Shown: positions 1 to 57,068 of the stretch, one piece after another
Layout of the letters: the number at the start of each line of letters is the position of its first letter
Numbering within the stretch: the stretch's first letter is position 1
NCBI GenBank assembly: GCA_964035015.1
Contig: OZ035998.1
Span: 28,379,529 to 28,443,528 of the forward strand
Reading direction: 5' to 3'
DNA: 64,000 nt
Source of the DNA: Corallium rubrum
Lineage: Eukaryota > Cnidaria > Anthozoa > Scleralcyonacea > Coralliidae
Position numbers and translations under genes: made by a program
The notes under the pieces: generated by a model
What the model saw: only the letters and a program-made list of their open reading frames with translations
Told to the model about the DNA's origin: nothing
Database searches by the model: none

Positions 1-3071
<3,071 letters not shown>

Positions 3072-3172
3072 GTAGATCTCTAGATCTCTAGATCTCTAGA
3101 TCTCTAGATCTCTAGATCTCTAGATCTCTAGATCTCTAGATCTCTAGATCTCTAGATCTCTAGATCTCAATC
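3072..3172. repeat. 8-bp tandem array TAGATCTC
   Basis: Almost pure TAGATCTC units, about 12 copies. Each is near-palindromic (AGATCT, TCTAGA), so either strand can fold into short hairpins. It joins the 10-bp satellite to the CATCCCTC block. Confidence 0.95.
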
Positions 3173-3431
3173 TCTCTATCTCTCCATCCCTCCATCCCTT
3201 CATCCCTCCATCCCTCCATCCCTCCATTCCTCCATCCCTCCATCCCTCCATCCCTCCATCCCTCCATCCCTCCATCTCTCCATCTCTCCATCTCTCCATC
3301 TCTCCATCTCTCTATCTCTCCATCTCTCCATCTCTCCATCTCTCCATCTCTCCATCTCTCCATCTCTCCATCTCTCCATCTCTCCATCTCTCCATCTCTA
3401 TCTCTCTCTCTCTATCTCTCTCTCTCTCCCT
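3173..3431. repeat. 8-bp pyrimidine arrays (CATCCCTC, CATCTCTC)
   Basis: Tandem CATCCCTC changes to CATCTCTC and then CT-rich sequence, stopping at the exact point where duplicon A begins. Confidence 0.9.
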
Positions 3432-4350
3432 CCATGAAGTTAGTTATAATACCTAGCTAACAGTTTTTATATTATTTCGATCGATTTCTCAACAAGACTC
3501 ATTGTTTCGATTTTGCATTTTATCTTCAAACGTGGTTATACTAGCCGTTCCTGAAAGACCGAGACCCCAGTAAATGGACAAGTTCACCTGAAGGAAAGGA
3601 GACTTCTACTCAGCCCATTCTTCCCATGTTGAAAAATGTGGGAAGTGAGGGCAGGAGCGTGGCGAGGTAATCACGATTGGGGGAGTGTGTCATATGATAA
3701 TAACCAACTTTTTGCAATGATAAACGAAAATTTTCATATCAGACACACGTGTAAAAATGTCGAGAATAGGCGAATTTCAGCGTATTGCGCTTGCATCAGT
3801 TTGCCAAGGAATTGGCGGGTTCTTGGCGGGCTACCTACATAGTAAGCAATGACAAACAGACATGCTAGCGAGCCAACAACAGCAGAATAACGTAACAGTG
3901 TTAAACATTCGGAAACTGTATCTATACTTTATTTATTTTTAACAGTTTGTTTACTTTGAGGGGAGTTGGCCAGCTTTTTTGAAAAATGATGCGCGCACAA
4001 TACCCTGAAACTCGCCTATTGATCGAAAAACTTGTAATGCATAAACGGGTATTTAAGAGCTGGGCAAAACAAGACAAGACAGAAACATTTTATTTTTATG
4101 GAAACAATCAAAAGTCACTGAAACTCTGAAAGTGTTCTGAATGTTAATCTGAAAGTAACTTGAATAAAGTGGAAAACATGTTTAACAATTACGGTGGTAA
4201 ACTAGTTATCTAGGCAATGCTAATTCTTCGACATGTAAAGTTTGCCCAGCAGCATATCTCCTAATTTAGAATTACTTGAAATAATGTTATACTTCTGTTA
4301 GTTAATCAGGGAGTAATTTTTCCTTTTATTCAATTTCTAGTTTCGTAGCA

Positions 4351-5210
4351 ATGGAAGTACACAAGCTATGTTTTGCCATTGTTTCCCTATTACTCCAACC
4401 AGTTTGTGCCACGACGGCAGAAGAACCGGACTTCACGGCTGCTCGTAACAAGATCAATGCAGCGAAACCCAACATTGTCTACAAGACGTTTTGTAGTGCG
4501 ACAAAATCGGGAGGCGACAAGATTGCTTGTCGTCTCAAAGATGTTCCATCAGTTGGATACCTGGTGTGCAAGACAGAAAAAGTAGAAGGAGAACCGTGTG
4601 AAGACATTATAGGCGAAGAGTTGAATAATATCAAGACACTCGGTAATGATGAAGTCAAGACAGTGACCGTCTCACCGCCCGCCATCAACGGTGTAATGTG
4701 TGGAAATGAGTCTAGCCCAAATTGCACTGGATTCTTGGAAGAATGGATCGACGAGAAGGACGGAGATTTCCAGCATGTTCGCGACCATATCTCGGATGGC
4801 ACAGTGGACAATCTCATCAAAACAGTGGAAAACATAACCACTAAAGAAGGGCTCAAAACAACTGCTACTGATCTTAAGAAGATCGTGGAATATATGACAA
4901 AGGGCCAGGAAAAATACCGACAAATATGCGATCTTCAGGGTTTCTTTCTGAAGAAAGGAGGGTTTCTTCTCAACGACGTCCCGGCCCTCGAAGACAATCT
5001 AATCTTAAATGGTACCTGTTTTACAGGGGAGCCTCTGCAACTGAAGTACTTGATGCCCTTAATAAGATGATTACAGCGTTTGACGTCGACGGTGCCACTA
5101 ATACGCCTTCCAATTCGTATTCTGCACAGAAGCTGCACCTTTCATTTTATTTCGTCGTAATATAGCTAGTTTTCGTCTTTTATTTAAAGGGTGAATATGA
5201 GTTGGTTTAA
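4351..5210 (+). pseudogene. Secreted/membrane protein of unknown family, copy A, broken near the C-terminus
   Basis: The open frame starts at 4351 with a hydrophobic N-terminus (MEVHKLCFAIVSLLLQPVCA) that looks like a signal peptide cut near residue 20. The body has spaced cysteines, N-glycosylation sequons (NES, NCT, NIT, NGT) and a Thr/Lys-rich region around residues 155-190. Compared with copy B, one base is missing near 5035, so the frame ends early in a short tail, and the original frame then meets TAG at 5163-5165. Copy B shows that the ancestral C-terminus ran on into a hydrophobic stretch, consistent with one membrane pass or a GPI signal. I do not recognise the family; the mid-region resembles stalk segments of adhesion-type receptors only weakly. 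No intron is evident. The two copies are broken at different places. Confidence 0.7.
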
Positions 5211-8292: not shown

Positions 8293-8363
8293 GCCTCCGT
8301 GGCTCAGTGGTCAGAGCATTGCACTAGAATCGCAAGGTCGTGGGTTCAATTCCTGCCGGAGGG
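8293..8363 (+). repeat. tRNA-like head of a SINE
   Basis: A cloverleaf is readable: acceptor GCCTCCG against CGGAGGG, D-arm GGCTCAGTGGTCAGAGC with an A-box, anticodon-like loop CTAGAAT, and B-box GTGGGTTCAATTCC. The anticodon would read AGA (Ser), but the long variable arm of tRNA-Ser is missing and two stems have mismatches. A conserved non-tRNA body follows to 8458 (CTACACTCGAATTTTCCTTC). That body recurs reversed at 16790-16865, so this is a mobile tRNA-derived unit, not a working tRNA gene. Confidence 0.65.
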
Positions 8364-8455
8364 CCTGTGTAGTTGCATTTTTCGCAGCTGCTCCCGGTTT
8401 GGTCTTAAAATGTATATATTCTACACTCGAATTTTCCTTCACCCTAAATCCTTAG

Positions 8456-8590: not shown

Positions 8591-9850
8591 CGAGTTCAAG
8601 GTAAAAGTTACGTCAAATTCAAAATCACACTTAAATTAAACGAGAAACGGAATACAAAAGAAAAAATGAACTTCAGGATTACAAAAAATGACGGGAACTC
8701 GGAGGAGATCTAGCCAGTAGAAATATTTGCTGACCGGTGATTAAATGAAAAGGTGATTACTATTACTTATAAGGATATAAGTCGGGTACCTTTTGGTAAT
8801 GACGTAACTTCGGGAAGCAGTCGGAGACCAATCGGGAATGAATACCAGGGGGGTTGAGTAACAGCTAGGGTTTAGGGGGGAAAGTTAGGGTTAAGAGGGT
8901 CCAAGAGGGTCCTAAAGGAGTCTGAGAAATAATGACGTATGCATAATGAGATTAGAGTTAGGAGGTCCCACAGGGGCCTGAGAATGAATAAATAATAAGT
9001 TGAATATTTAATGAGGCGGCATCCCTTTGGCAGCTATATGGGGGGGGGGGGGTATCACTACTTGTACTTCTATTTAGTGCAAAAATTTCTAAAATTTGAA
9101 CCGTTTTATAGCCATTTTTACTTGTACTCTGTTTATATATTTACTAGTCGCATTTTAGCTTTTGTGTGGTTGAAACCTGACAGCAAACTTTGTTGTCGTA
9201 CGTTTTGATAGTTAAATGGCTCATGCTGCTGAACCAATCAACTACTATAGACTATTCTTCGGAAACAAACATTTTATTATTTAAATATTTGTAATAGTTT
9301 ATAGCTGGACTGGATTTCATCTTCAAAAGATAAAGCTTATAATTTTCTGCAAGCAAGTAATATAGCCAATCAATATTTGTAACTTGGAAAAAATATATAC
9401 GTGAGGCATCTTTTCATTATTCATTATTTTCTTCAGTCAATTCAGTAATGCTCTGATGAGGTCCAGCGTGTCCGATATGTATTAACTTCGGCAAACAAAC
9501 TGTCACCCTCGGTACCAGTACATAAAGTGTTTATTGTTATTTTAATAATAGAAATGTGAATTCTTTAAAGCATCTGTTGATATACTAAATATATAAACAA
9601 ATACAAGTTGTTATTGTCCCCAATTTCTAAACAGATGAGATACACTGGATTTTCAATTAAAATGTAAGAATTCAGATCACGTATTACCGATTTCCCCGAC
9701 TGTAAAGTTGGCCTGCACGGGGAATAAACCCCCCGCGCAATTTTTCGCAAATTTGGCGAAATCCGCGTATTTTGCCAAAAAATGACTGAAAACATGTCTT
9801 TTTCGCCATTTTTTGCCATTTTACGCAATTTTGTCCGGGATCTGTTTTTC
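8591..9850. other. Intergenic, G-runs and degenerate repeats
   Basis: No supported gene. Degenerate repeats with AGGGTTT/AGGGTTA and GAGGGTCC lie at about 8845-8960, with a 12-G run near 9040. Confidence 0.4.

Positions 9851-10296: not shown

Positions 10297-10340
<44 letters not shown>
10297..10340. repeat. AT dinucleotide tract (left edge of retrozyme)
   Basis: (AT)n directly abutting the first retrozyme unit. Confidence 0.9.
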
Positions 10341-10341
<1 letters not shown>

Positions 10342-10482
10342 CAGGATGAGCCATGAGCCATTGCTGCTTACGCATTGTGCACACGCTCACTGCTTGCAGT
10401 TTGAGCGCTCTGGCATGGTTTTGATGTCCCACAATTTGTGAGGCACCAAAGGTGAATGTAAATAGCAGTTACGCTCATCAGC

Positions 10483-10528
10483 ACTACACTGATGAGGCCC
10501 GAAAGGCCGAAACGGTACCGTCTGTAGT
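10483..10528 (+). ncRNA. Type I hammerhead ribozyme, copy 1
   Basis: Core CTGATGA at 10489-10495; stem II GGCC/GGCC closed by CGAAA; GAAA at 10509-10512; minimal stem III CGGTACCG at 10513-10520; cleavage triplet GTC ending at 10522. Stem I is a perfect 6-bp pair of ACTACA (10483-10488) with TGTAGT (10523-10528). All invariant core bases are present. The very short stem III suggests activity mainly as a dimer, as in retroelement hammerheads. Confidence 0.92.
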
Positions 10529-10713
10529 TAGATATCGCTCTATGGCCTTTAGGTCATATTGAGCGCTCTACAGGATGAGCCATTGCTGCTTACGCATTGT
10601 GCGCACGCTCACTGCTTGCAGTTTGAGTGCTCTGGCATGGTTTTGATGGCCCACAATTTGTGAGGCACCAAAGGTGACTGTAAATAGCAGTTACCTTCAT
10701 CCTGCTCATCAGC

Positions 10714-10757
10714 ACTACACTGATGAGGCCCGAAAGGCCGAAACGGTACCGTCTGTA

Positions 10758-10759
<2 letters not shown>
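10714..10759 (+). ncRNA. Type I hammerhead ribozyme, copy 2
   Basis: Same core as copy 1: ACTACA 10714-10719, CTGATGA 10720-10726, GTC 10751-10753, TGTAGT 10754-10759. The second unit runs into (AT)n right after stem I, so peripheral stem I contacts are lost on the 3' side. Confidence 0.92.

Positions 10760-10821
<62 letters not shown>
10760..10821. repeat. AT dinucleotide tract (right edge of retrozyme)
   Basis: (AT)n starts directly after TGTAGT of the second ribozyme. Confidence 0.95.
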
Positions 10822-30900: not shown

Positions 30901-33900
30901 ACTAATCTCCAAACTTAATCCAGTTCTTAACGCCACTATAAGATCAACTCCTCTTGATCTATTTTAAGTATGTTGTCTGTTATTGATATTTTATTTTATT
31001 TTATTTAACTTTACCTTGACTAAATAAATACAAGGATAGGAACACCGCAACAACTGAGGCCGATTACTGCGGGTCCTGATTGTCTACTATTTACATTAAA
31101 TAATATGTGATATAAATATAATTATTTGATATAAACATAACAAGTAAAAACTTTTAAGATGAAGCTAGCTGAAGGTCTAAAAAGAACAAGTAGGGGAAAC
31201 ACATAGACTACGGACAGAGTTACATTTAATACAAATTGATTTCCAGGTGCGTGGGTCTTCAGAATGGTATGTAGAGAGAATAGCAGAGTGGTAGTATTCT
31301 TTTAGTTTGTTTTTGAAATTTGAAAGATTGGTAGTCCGGGTTATTTCTTGAGGCAGCACGTTCCATATTCTTGGAGCTCTTATTAGGTATGATTTACCGT
31401 ACGTCGATGTTCTATATGATCGCTGTTTGAAAGCGCTGCCATCTGTTTTAATCTGAGATCTTGTAGGTATGTTGGTAGGTTTGCATTTTTCAGGAATTGT
31501 AGTTTTGTCAAATGAAATATATTGATTGATTATTTTGAAAAAGAATACCATGTCCAGATATTCGTGCCAGTAGGTTAGAGGAAGTAGGTTTGTTTCGATT
31601 AGTCTGTTCTCGTAAGTAATTTCACATTGGAAAGGTAGATTAAGAATATATTTTGTTGCGCGTCGTTGAACTCGTTCGAGATTTTTTATCAGCTCAATTG
31701 TTTGTGGGCTCCAAACCTGAGACGCGTATCCAATGTGGCAACGGACAATTGCCAGATAGATGGTACGTTTGGTGCTGATGGCGTTAATGTTTTTTGTGGT
31801 TCTTCTAGCGTACCCCAGGATCTTGTTGGCCTTAGCTGTTTGTGAATGAACCTGTTTCTTCCACAATAAGTCAGAGGAAATCCATACTCCAAGGTCTCGT
31901 TCATGTGAACAGTGTTTCAGTTCGATGTTGTCCATGGAGTATGGGATCATGACGCGTTTCTTCTTTCTTGTTATGGTCTGAACTTTGCATTTTCTTTGGT
32001 TAAAAGCAAGGTTTGAAGATAGTGACCATTCATTGATGTTATTCAGGTCCTGTTGCAGCAGAGTGTTGTCTGCTTCAGTAGATATGCGCTTGATTAGTTT
32101 TGTATCATCGGCGAAGGTCGCTATTATTGTGGACGATAATACTGCGTAGGGAAGATCGTTGACGTAAAGAAGGAATAGCAATGGTCCGAGGATCGATCCT
32201 TGAGGCACACCAGAAGTTACAGGTAGAGGAGAAGAAGTTTCACCAAGTACTGTGACTTGCTGCCGACGGTCTGTGAGGTACGACTGAAACCAAGAGAGCA
32301 GGCTGCCGCGGAATCCAAAGCGACATAGTTTGTCAATGACTTTTTTATGACTTACTTTATCGAATGCTTTGGACATGTCAAGGTAAATAACATCGATCTG
32401 TTTTCCTTGGTCGAGATCACTTCCAATTGCATCTAGAATTTGGATGAGTTGAGTTGTACAGGATTTTCCTGGAACAAAGCCGTGCTGATATTCATTGATG
32501 GTGTTTTTCAAGAAGTCCCTAATGTGGTTGAGTACACAACGTTCCAACAATTTTGAAACAATGCAAAGGAGGGAAATAGGCCTGTTGTTTTGGTCCTCTT
32601 TTGTGTACTGGAACAACGTTGGCCAGTTTCCACTCGTCTGGAATCATACCAATACGGAGAGATTTGTTGAATAGGCAGCAGTGATGGGGCAATCTGGTAA
32701 GCTGTTGCAGTGAGAATTCGGCCAGGGATTTCATCCGGTCCTATTGCTTTATCTGGATCTAAGGATTTCAGCGCGATAAGAACATCAGTTTCCAACAAGG
32801 TCAATTCGTTGATGGTTTGTAACGGCGTGTTAGAGGTGCCTTGAGAGGTAGTATTAGTGTAGTCGTAGTTTGATGGTGTTGAGTCCATGTCTGTATCCTG
32901 GTTAAACACTAATGCGAAATAATTGTTAAACATATGAGCGATATCATTTGGGTTGTTGGCCACTTGGGGATAATTTTCCATGGAACGAGGAATACTAATT
33001 GTTTTTACTTTTAACTTAAACAAACTCCAAAAGCGTTTTGGACTGAAGTGTAGACTTTGACCAAGAGTGTTAAGATAGTTTTCGCGACCTTCTTTCATAA
33101 GACGTTTAACTGTAGTTCTAATTTTTCATGATGTCTTACACTGCTAAAGTCAACCGAAAAATTTCGGCTGACTCGAGCGGGATTTGAACTCGCACCTTCG
33201 GGATTCCGGTCCGCCGCTCTACCTGTTGAGCTATCGAGCCGCACAGGGATTGGAGGCAAGTTCTATCCAACTTAAGTGCACGAGATATTCTCGCGACAAC
33301 TTCAAATCCCGCTCAAGTCAGCCGAAATTTTTCGGTTGACTTTAGCAGTGTAAGACATCATGAAAAATTTTCTCATGTTTCTGAGGATGATTCTGTAATA
33401 GAATTGTAGTTCTAAGTTTCTTGAACTTTTCATACAGATAATTTGTGGGAGATCGAGCAAGTTTGCGACGGACAGTCTCTTTCTTGTTTAATAAATGCTG
33501 GATTTCGCTGTTAAACCAAGGGATGTTTTTCTTACCTTTCACTTTCTTCATTGGAATGTAGTCCTTAACCGCTGTGAGAAATGCGTTTTTCCAAGACGAC
33601 CAATCGTTATTGATGTTACCGTTAGCTGATATTACGTTAGATAAGTTTAATGATTCAAGACTAGAACGAAGTCCGTTGATATCTGCACGTTTGTAGCCGT
33701 AAACCACTCTATTCATTTTCACTGGTCGTTGAGGACAAGTTAATATCTCAAACGTAATGGCGCTGTGATCAGTCGCTACTCCGGACATTTCTGGCGAGAG
33801 GATTTCACATATTTTAATTTGGTCGGGTATGCTTGTTATTAAAAGGTCTAGAATGTTGTTTCCTCTTGTAGGAGAAGTGTTTATTTGAAAAAGGAAAAAA

Positions 33901-36900
33901 TCTTTTAGAAGTTCAGGACATGCATTTCCGGTTGTAATTTCAATTGTCTCGTCGTCAGTATTCTGCCAATTAGTGTTCGGAAAATTAAAATCACCCGCAA
34001 TGATGATGTCATCATACTGGTCACGAATCATACCAAGAAAATCGTTAAGTTCGTTTAGCCAGTTTTCGTCTGAATTTGGAGGTCTATAGCACGAACACAC
34101 CAAAAAATGTGAATTTGAATCCGTAGTTACATCAACTGCTACAATTTCAATATTGCAATTTGTTTGAATTTCACGCACGCATTTAAACGACTCACTTTTA
34201 ATTGCCAGAAGTACTCCACCACCTCTGTTATCTCTGTCTTTTCGAAAAATTTCATAATGTTGACCAAGAATCTCGCAGCTTAATACATCCTGTCCTCGGA
34301 ATAAACCAAACGGTGTTTTGCTGGAAATTTTCCCACGGGTTGGTACAGTTGACTTGAAGTTAGGTCCGGGATTAGTTTCTATGTCTCCAGACAATTTGAT
34401 TAAAATAGTAGCAAACATTGCGTGCTTCAAAAGGCGAACTTCAAGAATTGCAACAGTCGAATAATTTAACGGTCGCGATTTGCCCGTTACATGGCTACTG
34501 TAAAAACGGCGTCGTAAATTGAATGTTGAGATTTCTCCTGACAAATGGAGTAGTTCACTTGATTTATTGAAACTTTTATGATCTAGTATGTCTCCCAAAA
34601 CCAGGTTTAAGTAAATAATTAGGCATAAGCTGCGGGAGCTCGAAAGAACCCAACCAGCTGCCATGATGGCGCAAGCAAACATGATCATATTCAATCTCTG
34701 TTGTCTGTTCTTGATGTTCATTTGTCCGTTTGAACTTTAAATTTTGTAACCGTTCTTGTAATTTTAAACCAGTATATCTTTGTAGTATATATAGTGAACC
34801 AACTGTAATATAGTTTAAATGCTCTGAAGATGTTGTGATGTAACAACGAAACGTCAGTAAATAAATTTTTTCTTTTTATTATGTCTTGTTTCAAAGTCAT
34901 TTGCTGGGCTCTGATATTCATTTTTAAATTGCGTTTTCCGCCTGGTGTGTCTGTCGTTATAATTGTGTAACCTCAAACTGCTGGAAATAACTCCGCCTAT
35001 GCAAAGGCAAATATCTATTTTCCATTACAAGAATTTACCTGTGCAATTGGTTCCATCGCCAGTAAATCCACGATTACATGTGCAAGTATAAGAACTAACG
35101 GTATGTCTACAAGTAGCATGTTGATGGCAGAGTTTGGAGCTACATTTATCAACGTCTAAAAATAAACACAATTAAGTCATTATGAATTACAGCGCTCGCG
35201 TTTACTAACAAGGAACAGGAGTTCAATTTCGGACTCTATTCGAGTTCTTATATTGGCTAATATAATTAAATGTTTAATTGAAGATTTTCAGATAATATTT
35301 TCGTATCTTAAAGTCTTAGACGTCAAAGCTTTCTCTAAATCTGCCTTGTCAGATTGTTTATTTGCGTAAAAATGTTGTTTTAAATACAGTTACCTTTGGC
35401 TTCGCATGTTTGATCACTTTCTTTCATCTGCAATGTTTAGACAACATAATGTTAGTTTATAACAACATAATGTTAGTTTATAACTACTATAATAATATAA
35501 TATAATATAATCAATAATTATATCACGCAGTTATCTATAACTTAAACATTTTCTGTCAACACAACTGATGTATTTATTTTTATGCTTTGCCTACTTACAT
35601 TTATTACTTCATAATAATTAAATGATGGATCAGGAACGAGTATTTCTGGTTTAGTCGTCTTTGTTTCGTTGTTCAATTGACATTTCTTTCTTGCATTCAT
35701 ATTCTTGGTTTCTTCCTTTTCAAAGTTGATAGATTTACATCCTCGGCAGAGTTCTGCCAAACACAGATGTCCACAGTCCAATAAACTTTCCACTTCTTTT
35801 TCATAGATTAAGGATTTGTTAAGGCGATGTTCTTGTTAATCGAAAGAAAAAGATCACGAAAGAAAAAGTTGTGTGATTTACAGTAAAAAGCCGCATAAAA
35901 GAACACCTATTTTTAATGTGAGGCTGAATGGTTCTTATAGGTTGGGTGTGTATAGTGAGAAATGAGGCTGATAGGCTCTTGACAGGTTCTTATTTATAGG
36001 GTGAAAACAATTGTAACTGATCTGGTGTATTTTCATATTAGGGAAGAGTGGATGTATTACACAGGACGTATTACACTAATTATTGCTATAAAGAAGCAAA
36101 TAGACAAAAGAATCCCACAATTTAGTTATAAATACTACTATTTTTGGAGTATTGATTTACTTGCTTTGTATCTGCATGTGTTCGGAGTAGAACAGGCTGG
36201 AGTACATTACAGTACATTACAGTGCAGTGCAGTGCAGTGCAGTGCAGTGCAGTGCAGTGCAGTGCAGTGCAGTGCAGTGCAGTGCAGTGTAGTGTAGTGT
36301 AGTGTAGTGTAGTGTAGTGTAGTATAGTATAGTATCCTAAACCATACCATACCATACCATACCCATTCCCAACACGTACCGCACCAGTAGCCATCCGAAG
36401 CCGTACCGTACCAGCACCGCACCAGTAACGTACCAGTACAGTACCGCATCAGCACAGTACCGCACCAGTACCGTACTAGCTCCATACCAGCAACGAGCCA
36501 TCACCCTACCAGCACTATGAGTACCGTACCAGTACTGTACCAACACCGTACCAGTAGTACCGTAGCAGTACTTCACCAATACCGTATCAGTACCAGTATA
36601 CCGTACAAACACCGTACCAGTAACATACCAGTTCCATACCATTACCGCACAAACAGCGTACCAGTACCAGTACAACAGCGTACCAGTACCGTACCAGTAG
36701 CAGTAGAGTACCAGCACCGTACCAGTACCGTATCGGTGCTTTACCAGTACCACACAGTTCCATACCAGCACCGTACCAGTACCGTACCAGTAGCGTACCA
36801 GTACCAGTTTCAGTATCGTACCAGTACAGGACCAGTACCGTACCAGCAACGTACCAGCACCGTCTAGCACCATACCAGCACCGTATCAGTACCGTACCAG

Positions 36901-50389: not shown

Positions 50390-50935
50390 TTAATATAAAA
50401 GTGAGCGATAAAAGATTTACACGACGTTTCGATGTCATCATAACATCATTATCAAGTGAATAAAAGCTAACATGTCCCTTATATACTCTAGGCTAGACAG
50501 TACGTATTTGTCCTGAACAAAAACTAGTCAACCGTGACTATATACAATAAAAGTTCTACAATGCATCAATTAAACGCGTTATGAATAAAGAATGAAGCTG
50601 TGGTGTAATAACGCATGATGTACAACATAAGACTAATTAAAACAATTTAGATTTAATAGAATCCGACTGTCCATTTAAGCTAGGCTTTAGTTCTTTAATG
50701 AAAAGCATTTCAAAAACCAGACAATCAAACTTGTTTTTGCATTTTCGAAGAACTGAGAACCTCCCAAGCAAGTCATCCAAAGCCTGTCCGTGCGCTTCCT
50801 TGGCATGCCTTCCAACAATCGTGGTTTTATGCTCATCAACACGTTGGTATAGGTGTCGGCACGTATATCCGACATAACCAGCATCGCACTGGTCACACTT
50901 GATCACACCAGCATCGCACTGGTCACACTTATGGC
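50390..50935 (-). pseudogene. Penelope-like element 3' part: GIY-YIG endonuclease and terminus
   Basis: Minus-strand frame ending at 50637 reads CDQCDAGYVGYTCRHLYQRV, then DEHKT and LKPSLNGQSD. The GYVGYT...R..EHK pattern with preceding C-x2-C is the GIY-YIG domain of Penelope-like elements. An internal 27-bp duplication repeats CDQCDAG. Downstream (50400-50460) is a terminal motif with GATGT/ACATC hairpin and GAAACGTC. It is cut off from RT. Confidence 0.85.
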
Positions 50936-51563
50936 CAATGCTATAATGTGCAAAGTCGAAGGTAAATTGGAGAGAGATGGGAAAATGCCAGAAAATTACA
51001 ATCGCTATGTTGACGACACTCTTAATCGTTCTACCGACATTGGTACAGCGAATATGTTCCATCAAACGCTGAACGACGCTCATCCGTCACTCACATTTAC
51101 CATGGAGGTTCAGAAAGATGGTCAACTCCCGTTCCTTGGTATGCTCATGACCAAGAAAGATACTCGCATCTCCACCAGCGTCTATCGAAAGCCTACAGAT
51201 ACGGGACTTTTTCTACACTACCAGAGTCATGTCGACAAGCGATACAAGACCGGACTGATCAAAACCATGCTATATCGTGCAAAGAGATTGTCATCGTCAT
51301 CTGAATCCTTTCAAGAGGAATGCGATAGAATTCGTTTAAGGTTTGTACAGCTGAAATACCCTGAAGCACTGGTCAAGTTCGTGATTTTGGAGTTTATGAC
51401 AGCGGATGCTACAGATAATGCTCCTGGTTCACAAGACAGCGTCCCTTCTGGTAAGCCTGACACAGGTGACAGTATAAACGTCAGCCTACCTTTTAAAGAT
51501 CAGAAGTCAGCAAGAGTTGTCAAGCGGCAGCTGTCTGATCTATCCAACAAAGTGCATGGGTAA
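50936..51563 (+). pseudogene. Penelope-like element reverse transcriptase, C-terminal part
   Basis: Plus-strand frame with YNRYVDDTL (catalytic box), HPSLTFTMEVQKDGQLPFLG, YRKPTDTGLFLHYQSHVDKR and KTGLIKTMLYRAKRL, all typical of Penelope RT. It abuts the GIY-YIG piece head to head at about 50936, so the element is rearranged. Confidence 0.88.
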
Positions 51564-54240: not shown

Positions 54241-54315
<75 letters not shown>

Positions 54316-55225
54316 TCTCTCCCTCTCTCCCCCTCTCTCCCCCTCTCTCCCCCTCTCTCCCCCTCTCTCCCCCTCTCTCCCCCTCTCTCCCCCTCTCTCC
54401 CCCTCTCTCCCCCTCTATCCCCTCTCTCCCCCTCTCTCCCCCTCTCTCCCCTCTCTCCCCCTCTCTCCCCTCTCTCTCCCCCTCTCTCCCCCTCTCTCCC
54501 CCTCTCTCCCCCTCTCTCCCCCTCTCTCCCCTCTCTCCCCCTCTCTCCCCCTCTCTCCCCCTCTCTCCCCCTCTCTCCCCCTCTCTCCCCCTCTCTCCCC
54601 CTCTCTCCCCCTCTCTCCCCCTCTCTCCCCCTCTCTCCCCCTCTCTCCCCCTCTCTCCCCCTCTTCTCCCACTCTCTCCCCCTCTTCTCCCCCTCTCTCC
54701 CCCTCTTCTCCCACTCTCTCCCCCTCTTCTCCCGCTCTCTCCCCCTCTCTCCCCCTCTCTCCCCCTCTCTCCCCTCTCTCCCCCTCTCTCCCCCTCTCTC
54801 TCCCTCTCTCCCCTCTCTCCCCCCTCTCCCCTCTCTCCCCCTCTCTCCCCCTCTCTCCCCCTCTCTCCCCCTCTCTCCCCCTCTCTCCCCCTCTCTCCCC
54901 CTCTCTCCCCCTCTCTCCCCCTCTCTCCCCCTCTCTCCCCCTCTCTCCCCCTCTCTCCCCCTCTCTCCCCCTCTCTCCCCCTCTCTCCCCCTCTCTCCCC
55001 CTCTCTCCCCCTCTCTCCCCCTCTCTCCCCCTCTCTCCCCCTCTCTCCCCCTCTCTCCCCCTCTCTCCCCCTCTCTCCCCCTCTCTCCCCCTCTCTCCCC
55101 CTCTCTCCCCCTCTCTCCCCCTCTCTCCCCTCTCTCCCCCTCTCTCCCCCTCTCTCCCCCTCTCTCCCCCTCTCTCCCCCTCTCTCCCTCTCTCTCCCTC
55201 TCTCTCCCCTCTCTCCCCCTCTCCC

Positions 55226-55288
<63 letters not shown>
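54241..55288. repeat. Pyrimidine satellite, 10-bp unit CCCCCTCTCT
   Basis: (CT)n at 54241-54310 passes into about 90 CCCCCTCTCT units, with small variants (CTCTTCTCCC near 54660-54730), and back to (CT)n at 55230-55288. It begins at a LINE 3' end and ends where duplicon B begins. Confidence 0.95.
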
Positions 55289-55294
<6 letters not shown>

Positions 55295-56208: not shown

Positions 56209-57068
56209 ATGGAAGTACACAAGCTATGTTTTGCCATTGTTTCCCTATTACTCCAACCAGTTTGTGCCACGACGGCAGAAGAACCGGACTTCACGGCTGC
56301 TCGTAACAAGATCAATGCAGCGAAACCCAACATTGTCTACAAGACGTTTTGTAGTGCGACAAAATCGGGAGGCGACAAGATTGCTTGTCGTCTCAAAGAT
56401 GTTCCATCAGTTGGATTCCTGGTGTGCAAGACAGAAAAAGTAGAAGGAGAACCGTGTGAAGACATTATAGGCGAAGAGTTGAATAATATCAAGACACTCG
56501 GTAATGATGAAGTCAAGACAGTGACCGTCTCACCGCCCGCCATCAACGGTGTAATGTGTGGAAATGAGTCCAGCCCAAATTGCACTGGATTCTTGGAAGA
56601 ATGGATCGACGAGAAGACGGAGAGTTCCAGCATGTTCGCGACCATACCTCGGATGGCACAGTGGACAATCTCATCAAAACAGTGGAAAACATAACCACTA
56701 AAGAAGGGCTCAAAACAACTGCTACTGATCTTAAGAAAATCGTGGAATATATGACAAAGGGCCAGGGAAAATATCGATAAATATGCGATCTTCAGGGTTT
56801 CTTTCTGAAGAAAGGAGGGTTTCTTGTCAACGACGTCCCGGCCATCGAAGACAATCTAATCTTAAATGGTACCTGTTTTACAGGGGAGCCTACTACAACT
56901 GAAGTACTTGATGCTCTTAATAAGATGATTACAGCGTTTGACGTCGACGGTGCCACTAATACGCCTTCCAATTCGTATTCTGCACAGAAGCTGCACCTTT
57001 CATTTTATTTCGTCGTCATATCGCTAGTTTTCGTCTTTTATTTAAAGGGTGAATATGAGTTGGTTTAA
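56209..57068 (+). pseudogene. Secreted/membrane protein of unknown family, copy B, broken in the middle
   Basis: Identical start and signal sequence to copy A. A one-base loss near 56615 (GAGAAGACGG against GAGAAGGACGG) shifts the frame after about 136 codons; later TAA at 56777-56779 replaces a CAA codon of copy A. The original frame then runs to a C-terminal hydrophobic segment (FYFVVISLVFVFYL) and a stop at 57066-57068. The gene is broken here, but at sites where copy A is intact, so the two copies decayed independently. Confidence 0.72.

Follow-up and report, generated by a model that had tools for sequence, protein, structure and literature searches.

A non-coding type I hammerhead retrozyme family of Corallium rubrum with tandem 231-nt units and a common 3' end, frequently next to (TA)n

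The window, that is, the whole stretch of 64,000 nucleotides of Corallium rubrum DNA analysed here, was placed on contig C8 of the 474-Mb genome and contains an element that runs from about 10340 to about 10758-10759 and consists of a truncated unit, a full unit and the 3' strand of stem I (Table 1). The two 46-nt hammerhead motifs are identical, are spaced exactly 231 nt apart and have the order ACUACA / CUGAUGA / GGCC-CGAAA-GGCC / GAAA / CGG-UA-CCG / UC / UGUAGU, with complete core bases, a stem I of 6 bp and a stem II of 4 bp. In stem III, 2 bp and the conserved A-U pair are closed by a palindromic loop, GUAC. Reading by eye suggests that the internal copies may also form a stem Ia of 3 bp (AUC/GAU) closed by a small loop 1, which the terminal copies have lost. 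A strict descriptor of type I hammerheads, with stem I set at 5 bp and run on both strands of the window, found these two sites and none besides, leaving the minus strand without a hammerhead by this descriptor, and the same descriptor gave 2 matches in total on 200 Markov-1 random windows of equal size. An earlier note on this DNA, made from the sequence alone, had described two complete type I hammerheads 231 nt apart, which these identical motifs bear out. The dimer layout that it proposed holds in part, as the two hammerheads bound one full unit; however, the first unit is 5'-truncated, so there are not two full units. Its statement that the element has no ORF agrees with the finding that no stop-to-stop frame of more than 118 codons overlaps it. 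In the covariance-model check that it suggested, Rfam gave no ribozyme match in the window at gathering score; with lax limits, the best hammerhead model was Hammerhead_HH9, with 20.3 and 21.9 bits versus a threshold of 52, so that public models at their own thresholds would miss these hammerheads. AT-rich Rfam matches under the same lax limits were taken for low-complexity noise. The rest of the window gave only chance-level matches to the element.

Table 1. Positions of the element, its hammerheads and its flanking microsatellites in the window
Feature	Position	Strand	Remarks
Hammerhead type I no. 1	10483-10528	+	Predicted cut after C10522
Hammerhead type I no. 2	10714-10759	+	Predicted cut after C10753
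Unit 1, 5'-truncated	10340..10522	+	
Unit 2, full	10523..10753	+	231 nt, between both expected cleavage sites
(TA)n microsatellite, 5' side	10297..10341		Probably the target; TRF; last bases overlap the element start
(TA)n microsatellite, 3' side	10759..10821		TRF
Predicted blocking arm CTCATCAG, unit 1	10474..10481	+	Perfect complement of ribozyme core CTGATGAG
Predicted blocking arm CTCATCAG, unit 2	10705..10712	+	Same complement of ribozyme core
TAGATAT	10529..10535	+	Most (TA)n-like 7-mer of the unit (6/7); the usual insertion 3' end of the family falls within it

Between the two units of the window there are 4 substitutions over 176 aligned positions and two indels, both in unit 1, which has a 7-nt extra copy near 10353 and is missing 9 nt of unit 2. 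Set against the 86 full units of the family described below, one unit carries the common form (66-74 of 86) at every one of the four substitutions and the other a rare form (0-3 of 86), though not always the same unit, and neither indel occurs among the 86; such a pattern would be expected if both units were alike at insertion. The GC content is 49.8% in the full unit 2 and 50.8% in the truncated unit 1, borderline with respect to the retrozyme criterion of <50%. The 3' end of the element lies 5-6 nt past the second cleavage site (junction TGTAG|TA), and the (TA)n on both sides hides the limits of any target site duplication (TSD).

The window also contains fragments of other retroelements. 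The LINE and Penelope candidates that had been proposed as a source of borrowed machinery were confirmed as regards the LINE, with RVT_1 and endonuclease domains, and a GIY-YIG domain; however, the Penelope-like reverse transcriptase (RT) was called by eye only. This RT-like fragment (50853-51563, +) is located about 40 kb from the retrozyme and had no match in Pfam (E up to 1) or the PDB and one weak unrelated match, far under the cut-off, in NCBIfam, while its relatives in the genome include at least 150 scored of 2201 candidates, many of them in long open frames. The GIY-YIG domain (minus strand, E 4.2e-5) overlaps the fragment in the opposite orientation, the whole region being 50637-51563; GIY-YIG is the endonuclease type of Penelope-like elements. 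Such short, distant pieces say nothing about the mobilizer of the retrozyme, whose link to a Penelope-like element we infer from the literature.

Among the remaining features, the LINE-type ORF at 33342-34721 (-) encodes GDIETNPGP, which we take to be a 2A-like peptide, upstream of the endonuclease domain. Two ORFs 52 kb apart (4351-5070 and 56209-56694, +) have nearly the same first ~135 residues, and no Pfam match was found for the former. Long pyrimidine-rich tandem repeats with a 10-bp period are present at 1-3435 and 54243-55290, as well as tRNA-like sequences above the Rfam threshold at 8293-8364 (+) and 33169-33240 (-). As to the host, one GFP-like exon has fluorescent proteins as its best PDB matches, DsRed-type first; these are presumably anthozoan proteins, and the exon suggests an anthozoan host.

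The hammerhead-core pattern CTGATGA-N13-GAAACG-N4-CGTC has 263 + 265 = 528 matches in the genome, versus 0 + 0 for the reversed control, which excludes a chance origin of the hammerheads. A search with the 420-nt element gave at least 112 scored matches (40 of 499 candidates scored), mostly parts of tandem arrays, so that the genome search for dimers proposed by the earlier note did return many tandem relatives. Two samples were taken. The first includes 39 other places from the search with the 420-nt element, chosen by score and hence consisting of long arrays; the second includes 60 loci in genome order on contig C1 (1.47-75.94 Mb), taken from the core-pattern matches listed and leaving out loci already in the first sample as well as listed entries from 76.5 Mb on. 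All 60 genome-order loci are members of the family by blastn, and this set, being conditioned on an intact core, is silent on ribozyme decay. They are mostly 5'-truncated inserts with one ribozyme each by pattern, two in tandem being present in 11 of the 60. Both samples and the window together contain 86 full units in 47 arrays (the score-chosen sample contributing 74 units, the genome-order sample 11 and the window 1), with a length of 231 nt in 47 of the 86, window unit included, and of 223-237 nt in the others. The largest array seen (C203:1394708-1400878, L027) has inverted pieces and a block that is apparently repeated about 1.9 kb further on. The copies of the family truncate at the 5' end, and no LTR layout was seen. 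The size of the family, its tandem 223-237-nt units and the absence of a long ORF back the reading as a tandem retrozyme. By its anatomy, with a complete type I core and non-coding tandem units, the element is a real metazoan non-LTR retrozyme, a class known since 2016-2020, and is new as a family only.

Most insertions of the family have their 3' end at one point, 8 nt past the cleavage site, reading GTC^TGTAGTTA and then (TA)n. Exact terminal junctions (...GTC^TGTAGTTATATATATA) number 247 genome-wide and exact internal junctions (...GTC^TGTAGTTAGATATC) 225, with 0 for the control in both cases. The 217 hammerhead 3' contexts of the 99 fetched loci and the window were sorted into 123 internal contexts, 83 with a TA run and 11 others. 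The TA run starts directly at the cleavage site in none of the 83, TGTAGT precedes it in 62 of them, and one of the 83 is plainly unrelated sequence. Rarer end points are TGT|TA, TGTA|TA, TGTAG|TA (as in the window) and, once, in L054, TGTAGTTAGATAT|ATA, which extends into the next unit. Another context of L054 (+), among the 11 others, reads GTC|TATATG, which is imperfect and may end at about the cleavage site. Exact GGTACCGTC-(TA)n ends at the cleavage site were found twice genome-wide; one of the two, at C12:15823363, is doubtful, as it overlaps an array on the opposite strand and probably represents a 5' end, read in reverse through the palindrome. Of the sequences returned, 6 of the 8 matches to the GGTACCGTC-(TA)n pattern continue AATT and were not counted as family. 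Internal units of L019, L028, L040 and L105 read TATATAT instead of TAGATAT shortly after the cleavage site, which makes this word a perfect (TA)n. Because a linear monomer made by the ribozyme would end at the cleavage site, the ends past it argue that the copied RNA had this site closed and spanned it, as a circle or an uncleaved multimer would.

Here it is proposed that the window element is probably a 5'-truncated dimer of a non-autonomous non-LTR retrozyme, copied via a circle onto (TA)n. In the proposed cycle, a multi-unit genomic copy would be transcribed, the hammerheads would cut the transcript into 231-nt monomers, and a host RNA ligase would close these into circles; judged from its layout, the release of a 231-nt circular RNA from the window dimer is plausible. 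The RT and endonuclease of an autonomous retroelement, for which a Penelope-like element is the published candidate, would then nick (TA)n, and the nicked strand would serve as the primer. Reverse transcription would begin next to where helix I is open, in most cases 8 nt beyond the cleavage site (UGUAGUUA|GAUAUC), a start that may be chosen as the place where the unit is most like (UA)n. From there, the enzyme would round the circle, a fraction of a turn giving a truncated monomer and one or several turns giving tandem arrays.

A different template is conceivable, namely a linear, uncleaved multimeric or read-through RNA with a (UA)n tail that derives from sequence flanking the source copy and pairs with (TA)n, as in LINEs and SINEs with microsatellite tails; this is considered rather unlikely. 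With such a template, inheritance alone would account for the common end TGTAGTTA(TA)n, and TGTAGTTATATATA is the reading in 44 of 66 terminal contexts rich in TA, among which are a few of the second hammerhead family described below. However, the junctions vary among the rarer end points listed above, which small deletions or subfamilies could also explain. The flanks can be read for both templates. The genome-order set has 62 locus-strand entries, of which 6 complex ones were dropped from the flank count; among the 56 simple entries left, TA is present on both sides in 28, on the 5' side only in 7 and on neither side in 2, and the 19 (of all 62) with TA on the 3' side only are what a tail on a linear RNA would leave. 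However, (TA)n is also found on the 5' side in 35 of the 56 simple entries, which argues that it is the target and not a tail only; equally TA-rich 30-mers make up 0.6% of the window. No convincing TSD outside (TA)n was found in the 19 loci with a non-TA 5' flank. With a linear template, the hammerhead would compete with transposition, and the predicted self-blocking of the ribozyme, presented below, would favor this alternative.

The arrays and the variable 5' ends also bear on the template. The nearest relative, ties counted, is located in the same array for 38 of 57 units, versus a mean of 5.0 and a maximum of 12 in 500 label shuffles. Identical full units are present in the arrays L026 (4), L037 (3) and L043 (2), of which only L043 is distinctive, its units being 1.7% from any unit elsewhere, whereas those of L026 and L037 recur exactly in other arrays (closest outside 0.000). 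The mean distance is 2.9% within arrays versus 3.1% between arrays, with mixing in L027 and other large arrays; the similarity of units from different arrays often equals that of units within one, in line with the linear template. The 5' ends fall at unit positions 1-10 in 14 of 109 cases (4.7 if uniform) and in 6 of 64 in the genome-order set (2.8 if uniform); they include inserts of one or two whole turns, starting at the 3' end point of the family, although ends placed at position 7 may be an alignment stretch into the TA-rich flank. A larger peak of 5' ends, at unit positions 71-90 (18 of the 64 genome-order ends), is unexplained. Whole-turn inserts and the distinctive identical units of L043 come more easily from a circle, and the identical units inside some arrays lean towards a circle rather than a multimer as the template; unequal crossing-over could be an alternative source of alike units in one array.

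Copying via a circle was also weighed against the possibility that the element is the terminal (pLTR) remnant of a Penelope-like element with a minimal hammerhead and not a separate retrozyme. The Penelope-like RT fragment called by eye has the many genome relatives mentioned above, and one such element has been described to cut AT-rich DNA and to start reverse transcription internally (PMC11167929). However, the match is confined to the short unit in all 60 genome-order loci (with flanks of ~1 kb), the full units are 223-237-nt tandems, and stem III of the hammerhead comprises 2 bp, the A-U pair and a tetraloop, while the minimal hammerheads of Penelope-like elements are without helix III or loop contacts (PMC7761336), all of which makes this origin very improbable. 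Ordinary satellite DNA, with tandem units made by unequal crossing-over and the hammerhead as a passive relic, would fit the long and internally rearranged largest array and the overall closeness of the spread within and between arrays; however, it has next to no probability given that most genome-order loci bear the mark of retrotransposition, being short, 5'-truncated, one-hammerhead inserts that share a 3' end and are spread along the contig.

Three known kinds of element were considered and rejected for the window copy. A Penelope-like element would have an RT and GIY-YIG coding region, which is lacking in the copy (no frame >118 codons); in a plant-type LTR retrozyme the hammerhead would be type III, and here the open helix is helix I (type I); and a viroid or satellite RNA with symmetric rolling circle does not agree with the absence from the window of a minus-strand hammerhead by the descriptor and of any other Rfam ribozyme at gathering score.

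The ribozyme core is predicted to be paired with the upstream CUCAUCAG, a perfect complement of the core CUGAUGAG, both when circular and in each of five linear contexts that were folded. The minimum free energy (MFE) of the predicted circle is -82.5 kcal/mol with the blocking hairpin versus -74.8 kcal/mol with the hammerhead forced, and in the linear contexts blocking is favored by 5.5 to 9.9 kcal/mol, so that the overall preference is about 5-10 kcal/mol; for the bare 46-nt motif, stem I is predicted to be formed (P 0.85). The blocking arm is kept in 80 of the 86 full units, and its conservation is 0.991 versus a mean of 0.973, a difference too small to claim selection. An equally strong block was obtained with shuffled 20-nt flanks in 16 of 1000 cases for HHR1 and 57 of 1000 for HHR2, and with a shuffled body in 43 of 300 circles. 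The hammerhead was the MFE structure in 0 of 2000 flank shuffles, which indicates that the energy model probably under-rates hammerheads. These predictions are thus no more than suggestive of a self-block by the upstream arm in the natural flanks. The whole circle is more stable than all 300 shuffles, with a z of -3.8 for the linear form. The predicted self-block bears on the puzzle of why circles with active ribozymes are not recut, as stated in PMC7229834.

The comparison with known systems draws on parts of the cited papers. Metazoan non-LTR retrozymes have been described as type I hammerheads in short tandem repeats that self-cleave and give circular RNA (Cervera & de la Pena 2020, PMC7229834), with ~150-450-bp non-coding tandems (dimers or more), GC <50%, no LTR, PBS or PPT, a TSD of >4 bp when present, and the loop 1-loop 2 tertiary contacts of canonical hammerheads as class criteria (PMC7229834). 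Their circles are closed by RtcB in vitro, Penelope-like elements have been proposed as helpers (PMC7229834, PMC7761336), and borrowed retrotransposon machinery, as the earlier note also assumed, is the published view for the class. The ribozyme is free in most of these circles, in contrast to plant retrozymes and viroids (PMC7229834); the predicted circle of the present family hides the ribozyme in a hairpin and so would be an exception. Hammerhead repeats with 15-bp TSDs have been reported in Nematostella (PMC4918200). The newt and axolotl retrozymes are also type I, with a short stem III and tetraloop (two base pairs in axolotl HHR_Amex2), and may act as dimers, but have units of 330-350 nt versus 231 nt here, and are set apart from the present family by description, not by sequence (PMC7229834). 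The plant LTR retrozymes share dimeric hammerheads that bound a non-coding unit and a ribozyme predicted to be blocked in the circle; however, they are type III, with ~350-bp LTRs, PBS and PPT, 4-bp TSDs and a spacing of 600-1000 bp (PMC4918200, PMC7761336). Penelope-like elements likewise have a type I hammerhead, a tandem arrangement, AT-rich targets and internal RT initiation, but they encode an RT and a GIY-YIG endonuclease and, as noted above, have hammerheads of a different build (PMC11167929, PMC7761336). A telling parallel to insertion in (TA)n is that of the carnation CarSV DNA, found in microsatellite-like genome sequences (PMC9695139).

In the literature covered, neither targeting of (TA)n nor a 3' end fixed beyond the cleavage site was found to have been described for animal retrozymes. 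The 2020 paper, in the part drawn on here, leaves both the priming (DNA target or small RNA) and the enzyme undecided for animal retrozymes (PMC7229834). The hundreds of copies of the present family, with one 3' end past the site and many of them in (TA)n, offer a testable answer, which is target-primed copying of an RNA with a closed site. The insertion scars of the family make the copying step testable and give a hint of how retrozymes jump.

A second hammerhead family is present in the same genome (L068, L069, L099 and L110-L119), with a unit of 276 nt in L069/L119, which are one place, and of 278 nt in L112, and with a stem I extended by GUUC/GAAC, as read by eye. At the end of its insertions, TGTAGATTGAAC runs into (TA)n; exact terminal junctions of this form number 213, versus 0 for the control. 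The inferred start of reverse transcription in the first family falls in TAGATAT, adjoining the open end of helix I, and that of the second family is likewise at the open end of helix I, though not in its most (TA)n-like word; compared in this way, the open-end position is common to the two families, and primer pairing is supported in the first only. As a tentative generalization, with somewhat less than an even chance of being right in all its parts, ribozyme-made RNA circles of both families would be copied on (TA)n, healed cleavage site included, from a start point fixed where the hammerhead is open, with the microsatellite strand as the primer and the number of turns setting the number of units, and one of the two circles would be self-protected by an 8-nt complement of its core. 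Both families are found tail to tail in one (TA)n run in L068 and in L069, two loci with a similarity of 92% over 733 nt, which are possibly not independent of each other.

Outside the coral genome, the exact ribozyme pattern had 0 matches in viral contigs and in prokaryote genomes, and the exact unit-body pattern had 0 matches in viral contigs. A looser ribozyme pattern found one unrelated hammerhead-like motif in viral contigs, located at 9535-9568 (minus strand) of the IMG/VR contig L009, which reads TTGCA-CTGATGA...GAAA...GTC-TGCAA.
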